From Clostridia bacterium (GTDB taxonomy: Bacteria > UBA6262 > WVXT01 > JAUXBS01), in the NCBI GenBank assembly GCA_030618495.1, contig JAUXDE010000074.1:1-8870 (forward strand): a DNA stretch of 8,870 nt, given 5' to 3'. This document shows, in pieces, positions 581 through 4,891 of this stretch. The notes beneath the pieces were generated by a model. It saw only the letters and a program-made list of their open reading frames with translations. It did no database searches and was not told the origin of the DNA. Each line of letters begins with the position of its first letter. The stretch's first letter is position 1. Both the position numbers and the translations under genes were made by a program.

Positions 581-639
581 AATATTTATGATTATAGATG
601 ATAAATAATTGTTTGTCGACAATAAATAGTCCTGTATTC

Positions 640-771
640 TGTAATCCAAAATTACCCCCTTTTTCCACAAATTGTTACCGGAAATGACCGGGAGTTGATG
701 AATGATATCGTCGGTAAATAAACAGGGTGGGGCAATATTAGATGACAATACCGGGTCATAATTTCATGACA
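640..771. mobile_element. Mini-element A, transposase-less, IS21-like ends
   Basis: This non-coding stretch of 132 bp is built from four 19-bp repeats of the type TGTAATnnAAAATTGACCC. Two point inward from the left (640-658 and 673-691, starts 33 bp apart). Two point inward from the right (729-747 and 753-771, read as TGTCAT... on the minus strand, ends 24 bp apart). Tandem copies of the terminal repeat at each end are a known trait of IS21-family elements, and the TGT...ACA outer ends fit. No transposase or other ORF fits inside, so it is a MITE-like deletion derivative or a relic. It matches the reverse complement of 1671-1804, including the internal words AAACAGGG and ATTGT. I saw no target duplication in the flanks. 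Confidence 0.6.
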
Positions 772-850
772 GAAAACACCATGGTACGCTCAAGTATGTT
801 CTGGTACAGGTTTTCTAAGAATAGGGTATAATATGACCTGAATGATAGGA

Positions 851-1444
851 TTAAATCATATTGTTGGGTAAATATATCTTTATTTGACTGGAAACACGTT
901 TAAAATCTTTATCACAAGTTGCTATTGCTTCTTTTTTATTAACTAATGCTGTTGCTATAATATAAGCATCAGGTGGAAGCATTTGATTTGTTTTAATAAG
1001 GTGTAATACCATCCTTCTTATTTCAAAACTTGATTCTTCTAATTTTCTATAACGAGATAATGAAATTAACTTATTATATATTTTCTCTAACTTCGGATAT
1101 ATGTCAGTCATTATGTCAGGATAAACCTTATAATAATCAATAGGTTTGATTGGTCTGCCTTTTATTATCCTGTCAAGTTCCCTTTGACGTTTGGGGATAA
1201 TATTTTCAAACGCTTGTTTTATATTTATCCCTGTAATTCTTTGAAGCACTTCTTGAATAACCCAATCAGTTATATATATTTCACAATTATTTTGCCTTAA
1301 TGAAATTGCAAAATATTCACATTCTGAAATATTGCTTGAAGGACAACCGGTTAATCTTGCGGTAAGATTTAAAATGTATGATGAATCTAATAGGATAGTT
1401 CCAGGAAGGTCTTTTGACTTGAAACTATAAATGTTTTTTGACAT
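851..1444 (-). CDS. PIN-domain ribonuclease-like toxin (VapC-like)
   Basis: This 197-residue cytoplasmic protein has the acidic residues of a PIN-domain Mg2+-dependent ribonuclease in the expected order. These are D20 in TILLDSSYI, E65 in WVIQEVL, D159 in LPPDAYIIATAL, and D178/D180 in ATCDKDF. All appear intact, so the nuclease site should be functional. The middle (about residues 70-145) is a basic helical insertion that makes it longer than a typical VapC of about 130-140 residues. The ATG has no strong ribosome binding site of its own and lies 20 bp inside the end of the 51-aa gene, so it is probably translated by coupling. In PIN toxins of TA modules the target is RNA (often tRNA or rRNA); the target here is unknown. 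The module sits between two inverted mini-elements in A+T-rich DNA, which suggests transfer. A house-keeping PIN protein is possible but less likely given the operon form. Confidence 0.85.
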   Translation of the reverse strand: MSKNIYSFKSKDLPGTILLDSSYILNLTARLTGCPSSNISECEYFAISLRQNNCEIYITDWVIQEVLQRITGINIKQAFENIIPKRQRELDRIIKGRPIKPIDYYKVYPDIMTDIYPKLEKIYNKLISLSRYRKLEESSFEIRRMVLHLIKTNQMLPPDAYIIATALVNKKEAIATCDKDFKRVSSQIKIYLPNNMI

Positions 1445-1580
1445 AATAATTGCCGTTGTGTTCTTCGGCTATTTTCTGAGATGTTTTTTTGTCTACCTTA
1501 ATAGAACCAGATAATTCTTTTATTATCTTAATATCCTTTTTCAACTCTTTATCTGCTTTCTTTTTTGCACTTTTAGTCAT
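1425..1580 (-). CDS. Small lysine-rich protein, probable antitoxin partner of PIN toxin
   Basis: This 51-residue ORF runs from an ATG at 1578-1580 to TAG at 1425-1427. AGGAG (1587-1591) stands 6 nt before the ATG, an ideal site. The protein starts MTKSAKKKADKELKKDIKII and ends EEHNGNYYVKKHL. It is highly charged and lysine-rich, with a likely helix in the first 22 residues and a second short segment (SIKVDKKTSQKIAEEHNG). Its stop lies 20 bp inside the PIN gene, the arrangement usual for antitoxin-toxin pairs. I see no clear ribbon-helix-helix, AbrB or Phd motif, so the type of antitoxin is open. The SxKVDKKTSQKIAEEHNG part could be a short DNA- or toxin-binding helix. Promoter and operator placement suggest that this protein, perhaps with the toxin, represses the operon; that is an inference. 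Confidence 0.75.
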   Translation of the reverse strand: MTKSAKKKADKELKKDIKIIKELSGSIKVDKKTSQKIAEEHNGNYYVKKHL

Positions 1581-1597
1581 TTTGTTCTCCTCTTGTC

Positions 1598-1619
1598 TGT
1601 ATGATTATATTATCATACA
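1598..1619. promoter_or_regulatory. Perfect inverted-repeat operator of the PIN module
   Basis: TGTATGAT (1598-1605) and ATCATACA (1612-1619) are perfect 8-bp inverted arms around a 6-bp A+T spacer. The palindrome covers the -10 box and the expected transcription start (about 1600) of the PIN operon. A bound dimer would block initiation, as in autoregulated toxin-antitoxin operons. Confidence 0.7.
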
Positions 1620-1635
1620 TTATAATATTTTGCAA
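1607..1635 (-). promoter_or_regulatory. Promoter of the antitoxin-PIN operon
   Basis: On the minus strand TTGCAA (1630-1635) and TAATAT (1607-1612) are separated by exactly 17 bp, a good sigma70-type promoter. The predicted leader is about 20 nt and carries the AGGAG site of the 51-aa gene. Confidence 0.75.
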
Positions 1636-1670
1636 GTAAAATAGTCATTGTCTATAGCCTGAGTGTGAAA

Positions 1671-1804
1671 TGTAATGAGAATTTGACCCAGGATTGTAAT
1701 ACAATTTTAACCCCCTGTTTTATTCCTATAGATGGTATTGGCTAATAGGGTAGGGTCATTTTTCAATTACAATCTGTAGATAACAGAGTCAATTTTCGAT
1801 TACA
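1671..1804. mobile_element. Mini-element B, inverted partner of element A
   Basis: This 134-bp non-coding element has the same plan as 640-771 but in the opposite orientation. Two 19-bp repeats point inward from the left (1671-1689 TGTAATGAGAATTTGACCC and 1695-1713, starts 24 bp apart). Two point inward from the right (1753-1771 and 1786-1804, read as TGTAATCGAAAATTGACTC on the minus strand, ends 33 bp apart). The outer left and outer right repeats agree at 14 of 19 positions by my count. It has no room for a transposase. IS21-family ends carry such multiple repeats; the family assignment is an inference from that design and from the TTGACCC core. Flanks (GTGTGAAA left, GTTTACAG right) show no convincing target duplication, suggesting age or decay. 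Confidence 0.65.
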
Positions 1805-1900
1805 GTTTACAGCGCGCGCCACCATATAATCCCTTTATATTTGATTATTTATTCTTCCTTGGAATTGTTACTAATTGGTAGGTTTATTACCCGTTATAGC

Positions 1901-4891
1901 TTAGAAACGAGATAATAATTCTCCGGCCACTCCCCCCATCCCGTTTCTTTCAAACACTTGTTTAATAATAGCATATGGTTCCGGATCGCTGTGGTTCATC
2001 CTAATGATTTCTTCAAGTTCTTTAATGGCTTCTTCTCTGTTCCCGGTTTCTGCGTAAATTTTTGAAAGGAAGAAATGAGATTCAAAGCTCTCCGGATTGA
2101 GGTAAGTAGCCTTCTTAAAACTCTCTATTGACTTGTCGTATAACCTTATTCCGTGGTAAAAAATACCCATACCTTCATGGGCTTTGTACCTTGTAGGGTC
2201 AAGCTCCAGAGCCTTCATAAAAAAGGTGGCAGCTTTTCGTATATAGTTATTGTTTAAGAACTTGTAACCCATGGAGATATCCCGGTTCAGTGAAGACATT
2301 TTTGTTAAGTTCAGGATGTTTTCAATGGACTTATCGCGCGGGTTTATAGAAGCTGCTTTCATGAAGTCCGAGTAAGAACCGTCATAATCCATTTCTATGT
2401 ATTTTAATATGCCTTTTATTATGACGGACGACGACTCCGAGTACTTCTGAAGCGCTACGTTGTCAGCTGGCTTGAACGACGGGCTTTTTGCGGCAAAAAA
2501 CCCGTAAACGTTCTTCTTGTATTTTGATATTTGCTGAAGATTGTCCCTCCATGTCTGAATGTCAAGTGTAGCGCTCAACGGCGCTGAAAACTCAAGTATC
2601 GGCATATCTTCCGTATTTATAGGCGCATCACCGCAATATTCCCTGATTTCATCCTTGGACATAATGAGTGAATCCAGCAGTTTATAGGGATCGCCAAGGT
2701 TTACCTGTTCAAGGTCCTCTTTCACTGCCAGGATGTTCCTGAACCATGCCTCCCTATCTATTGAAATTTCCCTGATTGTCCCTATCAGGTACACCTGCCT
2801 GTTTATACAGTTCGTCAAGTACCAGACGCTTGATTGGGGGAAAACCGATTGGAACGTTTTCAACACCATTTTAAAGTCATCCGTTGAAAGCTTCCACATC
2901 GGCAGCCATACGACAATTACCCCTGTTTCCGATAACCTTTCCCTGCATAATTCAAAGTAATCCCTGGTATACAAAGAAGCGTTACCAGCAAACAAGGGGT
3001 GTATTGAGTCAGTCATTATGACATCGTTTTTGGTTTTATCTCTCCTGAGGTAGTTCCTGCAGTCTTCAATTACCAGGTGAAAAAACGGCTTGTCGAAAAT
3101 GTTATGGTTAATTTCCGTAAAAACTTCTTTTGCCGCTTCAACCACTCCCGGAACCAGTTCAACGCATATAATTTCAACCGGATTATGGAGCGATGCTGAC
3201 CAGCTTGTCCCACCGCTCCCAAATCCCACCTGCAGTATTCTTTCCGCGCGTCGGCCGTTCATTGATTCATATATTAAGAGCGGAATATGCGCCAGCGCTT
3301 TCTGCGCGGTCTCTATCATATTGCCCGTCCCGGCGACTTCACAAATGTTTATCCTCAATAAAAGATTTTTTCCTTCAATCGTATCCATTCTCGTGACGGC
3401 TACGGTTGCCATGGCGTCCTCTTTGTAATAAATGAGTTCTTCGGAAGGGGACTTCTTAACCCAGAATAAGGAGTTTTTGGAGACGTATGCGGAAATCAGG
3501 ATAAAAAGTATAACCGTAACTGCGGGAATGGATATTTTCAGAATTTTGTTTTTTCCGCCCGAAACGAGCAGGAGTATTATCCCGAGTAAAATGTTTACTG
3601 ACGCCATTGCCAGTATGCTTCCCTGCATGCCAAGCAGGCTTATGAAAACAAAACCCGCCGCAAAAGCGCCGAACACCGAGCCGATTGTGTCATAAAAACC
3701 GACTACGCCTATTTTACCGAAGGCTTTCTCCGTGTTTGATAAATAAATCCTGCTTACGAGCGGGAAAAGCGAACCCATCAAAATGGTGGGAACGAGCATT
3801 ATCATGAAAGAAAATATTACTTCATATGTTGTTCTTCCGATAGGGACATCGGTGATGCTCGGGAGCAGGTTGCTGATTAAATAATTCGAGTTCCTGAAAA
3901 TATACAAAGACGCCACTGCGGATAACCCGATCAAAAGCTCTACTATAGCAAAAAGAAAGACGGTGTTCTTTATCCTGTCAACGAACCTTGAGATTATGAA
4001 ACCGCCGATGGCAAGTCCGGTTATGAACGTCGCGGATACCAATGCGAAGGAATATACAGTGTTCAGCAGCCTTGTGGCGCAGAGTATCCTTATCCATGAG
4101 ATTTCGTAAACCAGCGCAATAAAACCATCAATCCCGAAAAGCGCCAGCACCAGTAATGACAGGCGATTTGTTTTTTTTACGTTAACTCCTTCGGTTATGT
4201 GTTCGTGACTGTCGGCGTGAACGCCGAGCTCAAACATGAAAAACGCCACAAGTGCAATCAGGATATTTATCGCTGAAGAAAACATTATGGTCTTGGTTAC
4301 GCCGAATTTTTTTATCAAAAAGAATCCTGCAAGCAGGCATCCTGCCACCGCCCCGGAATTGTTAAAGAAATAAAGGTTGCCTGAATTTTTTCCTACTAGA
4401 TTGCCTTCTTCGGTAAGAAATTTAAACAGGACAGGCATAGTCCCGCCCATGAGAGCAGCAGGTATTACCAGGATAAGGGAACACGAGAAAAAACGCAGGA
4501 CATTCAGTGAATAGATGCCCAGGCTCATATTCCCGCCATATTTTGCATAAAAGACGGTGACAAGCCCCGTTAATGCAGGCATTAACAGGCCGTAAATTCC
4601 TATGCCTATTTCAAGTAAAATAAATATTCTTATGGGATGCTTTTTTTTGTCGGCGATTTTTCCAAAACAACATGAGCCTATAGCGAGACCGCCCATGAAT
4701 GAAGCAAGAACAGTGGCAACGGCAAAGGCAGATACACCGAAAACAGGGTCAAGCAGGCGTATCCATGCGACCTGATGGATAAGCGCGCTCATGCCTGAAA
4801 AGAAAAACAAGACCAAAACCACGAAGTAAGAAGATGAACTGATATTCATCTTACTATACCAAAATCTTCTACTGTAACACATTTTATCCAA
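1901..4891 (-). CDS. Fused MFS-like membrane domain, spermidine-synthase-like domain and TPRs
   Basis: This 996-residue inner-membrane protein has three parts. Residues about 20-470 are polytopic and duplicated: FSGMSALIHQVAWIRLL (32-48) is echoed by LFGIDGFIALVYEISWIRIL (251-270), the signature of fused MFS/spermidine synthases. Residues about 485-760 form a Rossmann methyltransferase fold of the spermidine synthase type. It shows ILQVGFGSGGTS (552-563, SAM-type glycine motif), ICVELVPGVVEAA (575-587, acidic E578), EDCRNYLRR (609-617) and DVIMTDSIHP (623-632). Residues about 820-985 hold four or five TPRs, the clearest at 903-935 and 936-969. The usual substrate-loop motif GxxQ is replaced by INICEVAGTGN (514-524), so polyamine synthesis is not assured; another aminopropyl or methyl transfer, or a membrane sensor role, is possible. 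The TTG start (4889-4891) is chosen because GGAGG (4899-4903) lies 7 nt upstream; the ATG at 4880-4882 is the alternative. Confidence 0.85.
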   Translation of the reverse strand: MDKMCYSRRFWYSKMNISSSSYFVVLVLFFFSGMSALIHQVAWIRLLDPVFGVSAFAVATVLASFMGGLAIGSCCFGKIADKKKHPIRIFILLEIGIGIYGLLMPALTGLVTVFYAKYGGNMSLGIYSLNVLRFFSCSLILVIPAALMGGTMPVLFKFLTEEGNLVGKNSGNLYFFNNSGAVAGCLLAGFFLIKKFGVTKTIMFSSAINILIALVAFFMFELGVHADSHEHITEGVNVKKTNRLSLLVLALFGIDGFIALVYEISWIRILCATRLLNTVYSFALVSATFITGLAIGGFIISRFVDRIKNTVFLFAIVELLIGLSAVASLYIFRNSNYLISNLLPSITDVPIGRTTYEVIFSFMIMLVPTILMGSLFPLVSRIYLSNTEKAFGKIGVVGFYDTIGSVFGAFAAGFVFISLLGMQGSILAMASVNILLGIILLLVSGGKNKILKISIPAVTVILFILISAYVSKNSLFWVKKSPSEELIYYKEDAMATVAVTRMDTIEGKNLLLRINICEVAGTGNMIETAQKALAHIPLLIYESMNGRRAERILQVGFGSGGTSWSASLHNPVEIICVELVPGVVEAAKEVFTEINHNIFDKPFFHLVIEDCRNYLRRDKTKNDVIMTDSIHPLFAGNASLYTRDYFELCRERLSETGVIVVWLPMWKLSTDDFKMVLKTFQSVFPQSSVWYLTNCINRQVYLIGTIREISIDREAWFRNILAVKEDLEQVNLGDPYKLLDSLIMSKDEIREYCGDAPINTEDMPILEFSAPLSATLDIQTWRDNLQQISKYKKNVYGFFAAKSPSFKPADNVALQKYSESSSVIIKGILKYIEMDYDGSYSDFMKAASINPRDKSIENILNLTKMSSLNRDISMGYKFLNNNYIRKAATFFMKALELDPTRYKAHEGMGIFYHGIRLYDKSIESFKKATYLNPESFESHFFLSKIYAETGNREEAIKELEEIIRMNHSDPEPYAIIKQVFERNGMGGVAGELLSRF

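Follow-up and report, generated by a model that had tools for sequence, protein, structure and literature searches.

We found that the PIN-domain toxin-antitoxin (TA) module in this DNA lies between two short elements, E1 and E2, that belong to a dispersed, non-coding family. E1 and E2 are probably two independent insertions of a non-autonomous, MITE-like mini-transposon family that an IS21/Tn7/Mu-type enzyme would have mobilised in trans. That they are mobile mini-elements is well supported; an affiliation with IS21 is plausible. The window, that is, the whole stretch of DNA analysed, is contig C126 (8,870 bp) of a draft genome (G000; 1.69 Mb, 98% complete). Comparisons were made with other contigs of G000 and with a sister species in the same genus (G001).

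The original prediction described four 19-bp repeats in each element, in mirrored orientation, with repeats spaced 33 bp apart at the outward-facing end and 24 bp at the end next to the operon. Consensus matching, alignment and a hidden Markov model (HMM) bore out the repeats, and the spacing held for both elements. Seven of the eight repeats fit TGTNATNNNAANTTGACCC with at most 3 mismatches (chance expectation, 1.2), a number reached in 0 of 200 shuffles. The eighth, TGTTACCGGAAATGACCGG at 673-691, was read directly from the sequence and is clear by eye. The elements themselves stood, but their boundaries (640-771 and 1671-1804) did not. Comparison of copies revealed 7 more conserved bp at each end (TGTNNNN...NNNNACA), so E1 spans 633-778 and E2 spans 1664-1811. 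The features are:

633..778, minus strand: mini-element E1, subfamily A; 33-type end outward (left), 24-type end facing the TA module; TGTATTC...GAAAACA
640..658, plus strand: E1 33-end outer repeat TGTAATCCAAAATTACCCC; consensus match
661..669, plus strand: DnaA-box-like TTTTCCACA in the E1 33-end linker; from sequence
673..691, plus strand: E1 33-end inner repeat TGTTACCGGAAATGACCGG, 33 bp from the outer repeat; read directly
729..747, minus strand: E1 24-end inner repeat TGTCATCTAATATTGCCCC; consensus match
753..771, minus strand: E1 24-end outer repeat TGTCATGAAATTATGACCC; consensus match
851..1444, minus strand: PIN-domain toxin-like ORF, 197 aa; PF01850, E=2.1e-6
1425..1580, minus strand: small ORF, 51 aa, overlapping the start of the PIN ORF; no family match
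1664..1811, plus strand: mini-element E2, subfamily A; 24-type end facing the TA module, 33-type end outward (right); TGTGAAA...GTTTACA
1671..1689, plus strand: E2 24-end outer repeat TGTAATGAGAATTTGACCC; consensus match
1695..1713, plus strand: E2 24-end inner repeat TGTAATACAATTTTAACCC; consensus match
1753..1771, minus strand: E2 33-end inner repeat TGTAATTGAAAAATGACCC; consensus match
1775..1783, minus strand: DnaA-box-like TTATCTACA in the E2 33-end linker; from sequence
1786..1804, minus strand: E2 33-end outer repeat TGTAATCGAAAATTGACTC; consensus match

The asymmetric plan shared by E1 and E2 is real. To avoid circularity, we trained an HMM solely on three copies from G001. It matched the window at 1664-1809 (E2, E=1.2e-33) and, on the minus strand, at 771-634 (E1, E=3.5e-17). 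End to end, E1 and E2 align with identical bases in 81 of ~134 columns.

The ORF list confirmed the predicted antitoxin-PIN operon between the elements, with the Pfam match identifying the PIN gene; the 51-aa ORF is a putative antitoxin, judged by its position and size. Beside E1, at 2-524 on the minus strand, two small adjacent ORFs (111 aa and 61+ aa) resemble another two-gene module; the 111-aa ORF matched neither Pfam nor NCBIfam, and the 61-aa ORF matched nothing in Pfam. On the other side, 1901-4891 (minus strand) encodes a protein in which TPR repeats and a spermidine-synthase-like domain are fused to a multi-spanning membrane region; G000 and G001 contain several paralogues of it.

We found ~21 dispersed copies of the family, ~12 in G000 and 9 in G001. 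The original prediction had proposed looking for the 19-bp repeat in the 33/24 arrangement, and profile searches with two sequence-only profiles (R1, plus R2 for a diverged subfamily) recovered the 24/33-34 plan in both genomes. Family members are ~134-174 bp long and have no coding capacity. Like MITEs, they have terminal inverted repeats, precise boundaries, and dispersed copies with flanks that differ in both genomes. As predicted, neither E1 nor E2 has a transposase; both are members of this dispersed family without one.

The copies fall into three subfamilies (A, B and C). The tip, the repeat order and the end plan are kept while the core varies, shifting from TTRACCC to GATACACC, and the TGT tip and the 24-bp spacing are common to all three. 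Subfamily A has the TTRACCC core, and most of its copies have the DnaA-box-like TTATCCACA in the long linker. Subfamily B has a GATACA/ACACAC core and a 33-end spacing of 34; subfamily C is ~160-174 bp long. In most subfamily-A copies (L020, L022, L054, L057) the 14-bp linker of the 33-type end contains the exact DnaA-box consensus, possibly a host-factor site. At one locus (G001:C133, L097 216-242), an extra, reversed subfamily-C end immediately adjoins a complete subfamily-B element; the two form a nested or hybrid structure.

Among the genomes searched, the family is almost entirely confined to one genus. Four genomes of the same order contained no convincing copy. When 386 genomes were searched by pattern, the 24-type end turned up only in G000 and G001, apart from one chance-like match with three mismatches. 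A scan of ~85,000 GTDB species yielded a single additional partial copy, a lone 24-type end with a TGTAAAT tip in an Elusimicrobia MAG.

The end structure points to a class of enzyme. Each end has a 7-bp TGTNNNN tip followed by two 19-bp repeats, predicted to be binding sites of the transposase type. These sites are 24 bp apart at one end, and at the other the spacing is 33-34 bp, longer by about one helical turn. Tn7- and Mu-type ends have a TGT...ACA tip followed by several transposase sites, arranged asymmetrically between the two ends. The mini-elements share the tip, the multiple sites and the asymmetry. However, they are much shorter, have no linked tnsB or MuA-like gene, and lack a 5-bp duplication. 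A Tn7/Mu-type mobilising enzyme is possible; enzymes of this type have been compared with IstA (PMC10122671).

Of the three, IS21 is the most likely, given the 24-bp spacing and the ACCC-ending 19-mers. IS21-family ends have a terminal CA and carry paired direct repeats (L1/L2 and R1/R2), which in IS5376 are spaced ~23 bp (PMC10122671). The mini-elements likewise have short ends with two direct repeats each; in well-preserved copies these are 24 bp apart at one end and 33-34 bp apart at the other. Other differences are the absence of istA/istB, a different repeat sequence, and the 7-bp tip before the first repeat. The IS21-like label of the original prediction therefore survives as a resemblance in the paired-repeat end plan, but not for IS21 as the mobiliser, for which no full element with TGTAAT-type ends was found.

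G001 contains one complete IS21 (istA/istB, C8). It has ACCC-ending 19-mers 24 bp apart at both ends, in contrast to the 24/33 plan of the family. Its ends are YGCTCACATAAANTACCCC, not TGTAATNNNAANTTNACCC, and its repeat sequence is not shared with the mini-elements. Since the sequence differs, the spacing is 24 at both ends and the searches gave no istA/istB element with TGTAAT ends, we regard the family as IS21-like in plan and not as a proven derivative. This IS21 (L043/L093) has ParB-like and other ORFs upstream of istA, by eye, and is apparently inserted in a DUF4143-like gene.

A full istA/istB element with the mini-element ends, which the original prediction had suggested seeking, was not found in G000, G001 or the 386-genome search. 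Pattern searches of the 386 genomes, viral contigs and plasmids also yielded no full element. IstB and rve searches for an autonomous partner in G000 yielded no more than distant AAA ATPases, a fragment resembling IS3, and a transposase of the IS481 type with a different visible 3' flank.

An IS21 derivative would be expected to have a target duplication of 4-8 bp, and IS5376 makes one of 5 bp, whereas none of the 15 mini-element copies tested, including copies 95% identical to each other, had a target duplication of 4-9 bp. On G001:C81, the element directly adjoins a fragment of a Bro-N gene from which the first third of the domain is missing; this part does not turn up beyond the element either. 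The arrangement points to deletion or recombination at the borders of elements, events that would have erased target duplications. The border could also reflect a different insertion mechanism. Replicative inversion was considered and set aside: when the 5-mers flanking different copies were compared crosswise, all pairs together yielded only two matches.

Paired repeats that look like protein-binding sites, located beside TA operons, might instead be regulatory or structured RNA elements of those operons and not mobile DNA. We consider this highly improbable. Copies are also found by galT, between galK and an rpoB-type gene, by coaD, and at the Bro-N fragment, and their distance and orientation relative to TA genes vary. 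No conserved RNA fold was common to the copies (z from +0.6 to -4.4 between copies), which argues that the constraint acts on DNA sites.

The original prediction proposed that 640-1804 could move as one composite carrying the PIN module. This would resemble TIME-COMP, formed by the Tn3-derived MITEs (TIMEs) of Pseudomonas, which have no transposase and, as pairs in either orientation, can bracket and mobilise the intervening DNA (PMC4133298). TA modules are bracketed by two copies both in the window and on G000:C127. Nevertheless, a composite PIN unit is unlikely. Target duplications were absent at the outer (633/1811) and inner edges of the E1-PIN-E2 unit. E1 and E2 are 61% identical to each other; identity to intact G001 copies is 79-83% for E2 and 64-69% for E1, so the two are not sister copies. 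Both outer ends are of the 33 type, a caution that the original prediction had itself raised. In addition, TA modules with one adjoining copy outnumber those that are bracketed. The neighbouring spermidine-synthase-like gene has a best G001 match of only 37-39% identity and there is no orthologous locus in G001, and hence no empty site was found. TIMEs also differ in structure, with single Tn3-type inverted repeats of 38 bp and a length of ~262 bp, and their movement was shown experimentally, whereas the PIN unit is known from sequence alone. Direct repeats are usual at MITE insertion sites, although often lost. Many TIMEs lack direct repeats, and only four known TIMEs have them (PMC4133298).

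The pair on G000:C127 is a better composite candidate than the PIN unit. Here two copies, 92% identical and each other's closest relatives, bracket a Gp49/dnstrm_HI1420-type (HigBA-like) TA module. They are in direct orientation, so the outer ends differ in type. The second copy is at the very end of the antitoxin gene. This pair also lacks a target duplication (3091/4024). Just upstream of the first copy (C127a) is a truncated, tRNA-Leu-like 5' part (L095 ~3003-3050) that was not called by ARAGORN; it is possibly an old integration site.

The elements are frequently close to TA modules, and we regard this association as the most interesting lead. Ten of the 21 copies (8 of 19 loci) are within ~200 bp of TA genes, which by Pfam are of five unrelated kinds: PIN, Gp49/HTH, ParE/RHH, DUF4258/DUF2283 and zeta. 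The TA-adjacent copies are:

G000, PIN module (C126): two copies
G000, C127: two copies
C92: Gp49/HTH
C169: RHH/ParE
G001 C81: DUF4258/DUF2283
G001 C149: zeta-like gene
G001 C121: 5'-truncated PIN gene
G001 C133: decayed Gp49/HTH module with a deletion in Gp49

The RHH/ParE module on G000:C169 (L094) is followed, at 4030-4274, by what appears by eye to be a C-terminal fragment of a tyrosine recombinase. A repeated portion of the antitoxin gene then closes the contig, a possible sign that several copies of this module were assembled.

The association might simply reflect tolerance of insertions, with elements and TA genes unrelated to each other and both accumulating in variable, non-essential intergenic DNA. 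This is a serious rival, since TA genes and MITEs share one variable region in Sulfolobus islandicus (PMC3718332). About half of the copies have no TA neighbour (C144, C52, C4, C105 and C122; C249, C250 and C178 in G001), and several neighbouring TA genes are decayed (the truncated PIN on C121 and the deleted Gp49 on C133). On the other hand, TA-type PIN and Gp49 genes occupy few loci, 8 in the two genomes (omitting two PIN proteins of ~335 aa), and 4 of these (5 with a weak, degenerate copy on C128) adjoin an element. The binomial probability of at least 8 of 19 loci ranges from 9e-9 to 1e-3 for assumed, uncounted densities of 20-100 TA loci per genome, with TA families picked after examples had been seen and a null not drawn from variable intergenic DNA. 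We consider insertion tolerance a real possibility, if short of an even chance. It concerns the TA association only and is compatible with the mini-transposon reading.

We found two TA modules at different loci in the two species. One Gp49/HTH module is at unrelated loci (G000:C128 and G001:C133), in one species on the groEL side and in the other on the MacB side. The DNA is nearly identical, the exception being a deletion inside the G001 toxin gene, and the antitoxins have 91% protein identity. The edges of homology are sharp, one immediately ahead of the promoter region and the other immediately past the antitoxin stop. Immediately upstream is an element in C133 and a degenerate element-like sequence in C128. 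The second module, whose ParE toxins are orthologous (87% protein identity), has an upstream element in G000 but not in G001. As judged from these comparisons, the Gp49/HTH and ParE modules move or are reshuffled; the elements are no more than candidates for a role in this.

These observations might also indicate a TA-cassette system, in which an unknown, duplication-free recombinase (integron-like or tyrosine type) uses the elements as sites to move TA modules. Such a system would fit the 8 of 19 loci adjoining unrelated kinds of TA module, the lack of target duplications in all 15 copies tested, and the near-identical, sharp-edged Gp49/HTH module with an element or element-like sequence upstream. 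It would not fit other features: element orientation and the end facing the TA genes vary, only two modules are bracketed, the upstream elements on C128 and C133 cannot be aligned as one copy, and the orthologous ParE module (G001:C165) has no upstream element. The ends match the site pairs of a DDE transposase and do not resemble attC or dif sites. We think this system quite improbable. The pdif (dif) modules of Acinetobacter plasmids are similar in that TA and other gene modules are flanked by recombination sites (PMC6449649), but dif is a 28-bp XerC/XerD site, whereas the mini-elements have four repeats and a length of ~146 bp. A pdif module was rejected for the window, which contains no pdif-like 28-bp XerC/XerD site. 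We also doubt a further notion, that this lineage has a mobility system, so far undescribed, whose ~146-bp elements, with two sites per end, serve as ends or recombination sites and spread TA modules from locus to locus without target duplications.

Our results are most consistent with a mini-transposon family whose copies would have been mobilised in trans by an IS21/Tn7/Mu-type enzyme absent from both assemblies. The copies may then have accumulated in TA-bearing variable regions, or helped to reshuffle them. The PIN module is a neighbour of two copies and not demonstrated cargo. Conservation of the 24/33-34 plan with a changing core suggests several co-evolving, so far unseen transposases. 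TA modules are widespread and their carrier is often unknown. A family found beside five unrelated kinds of TA module is a concrete, searchable marker for TA shuffling in a poorly known lineage.
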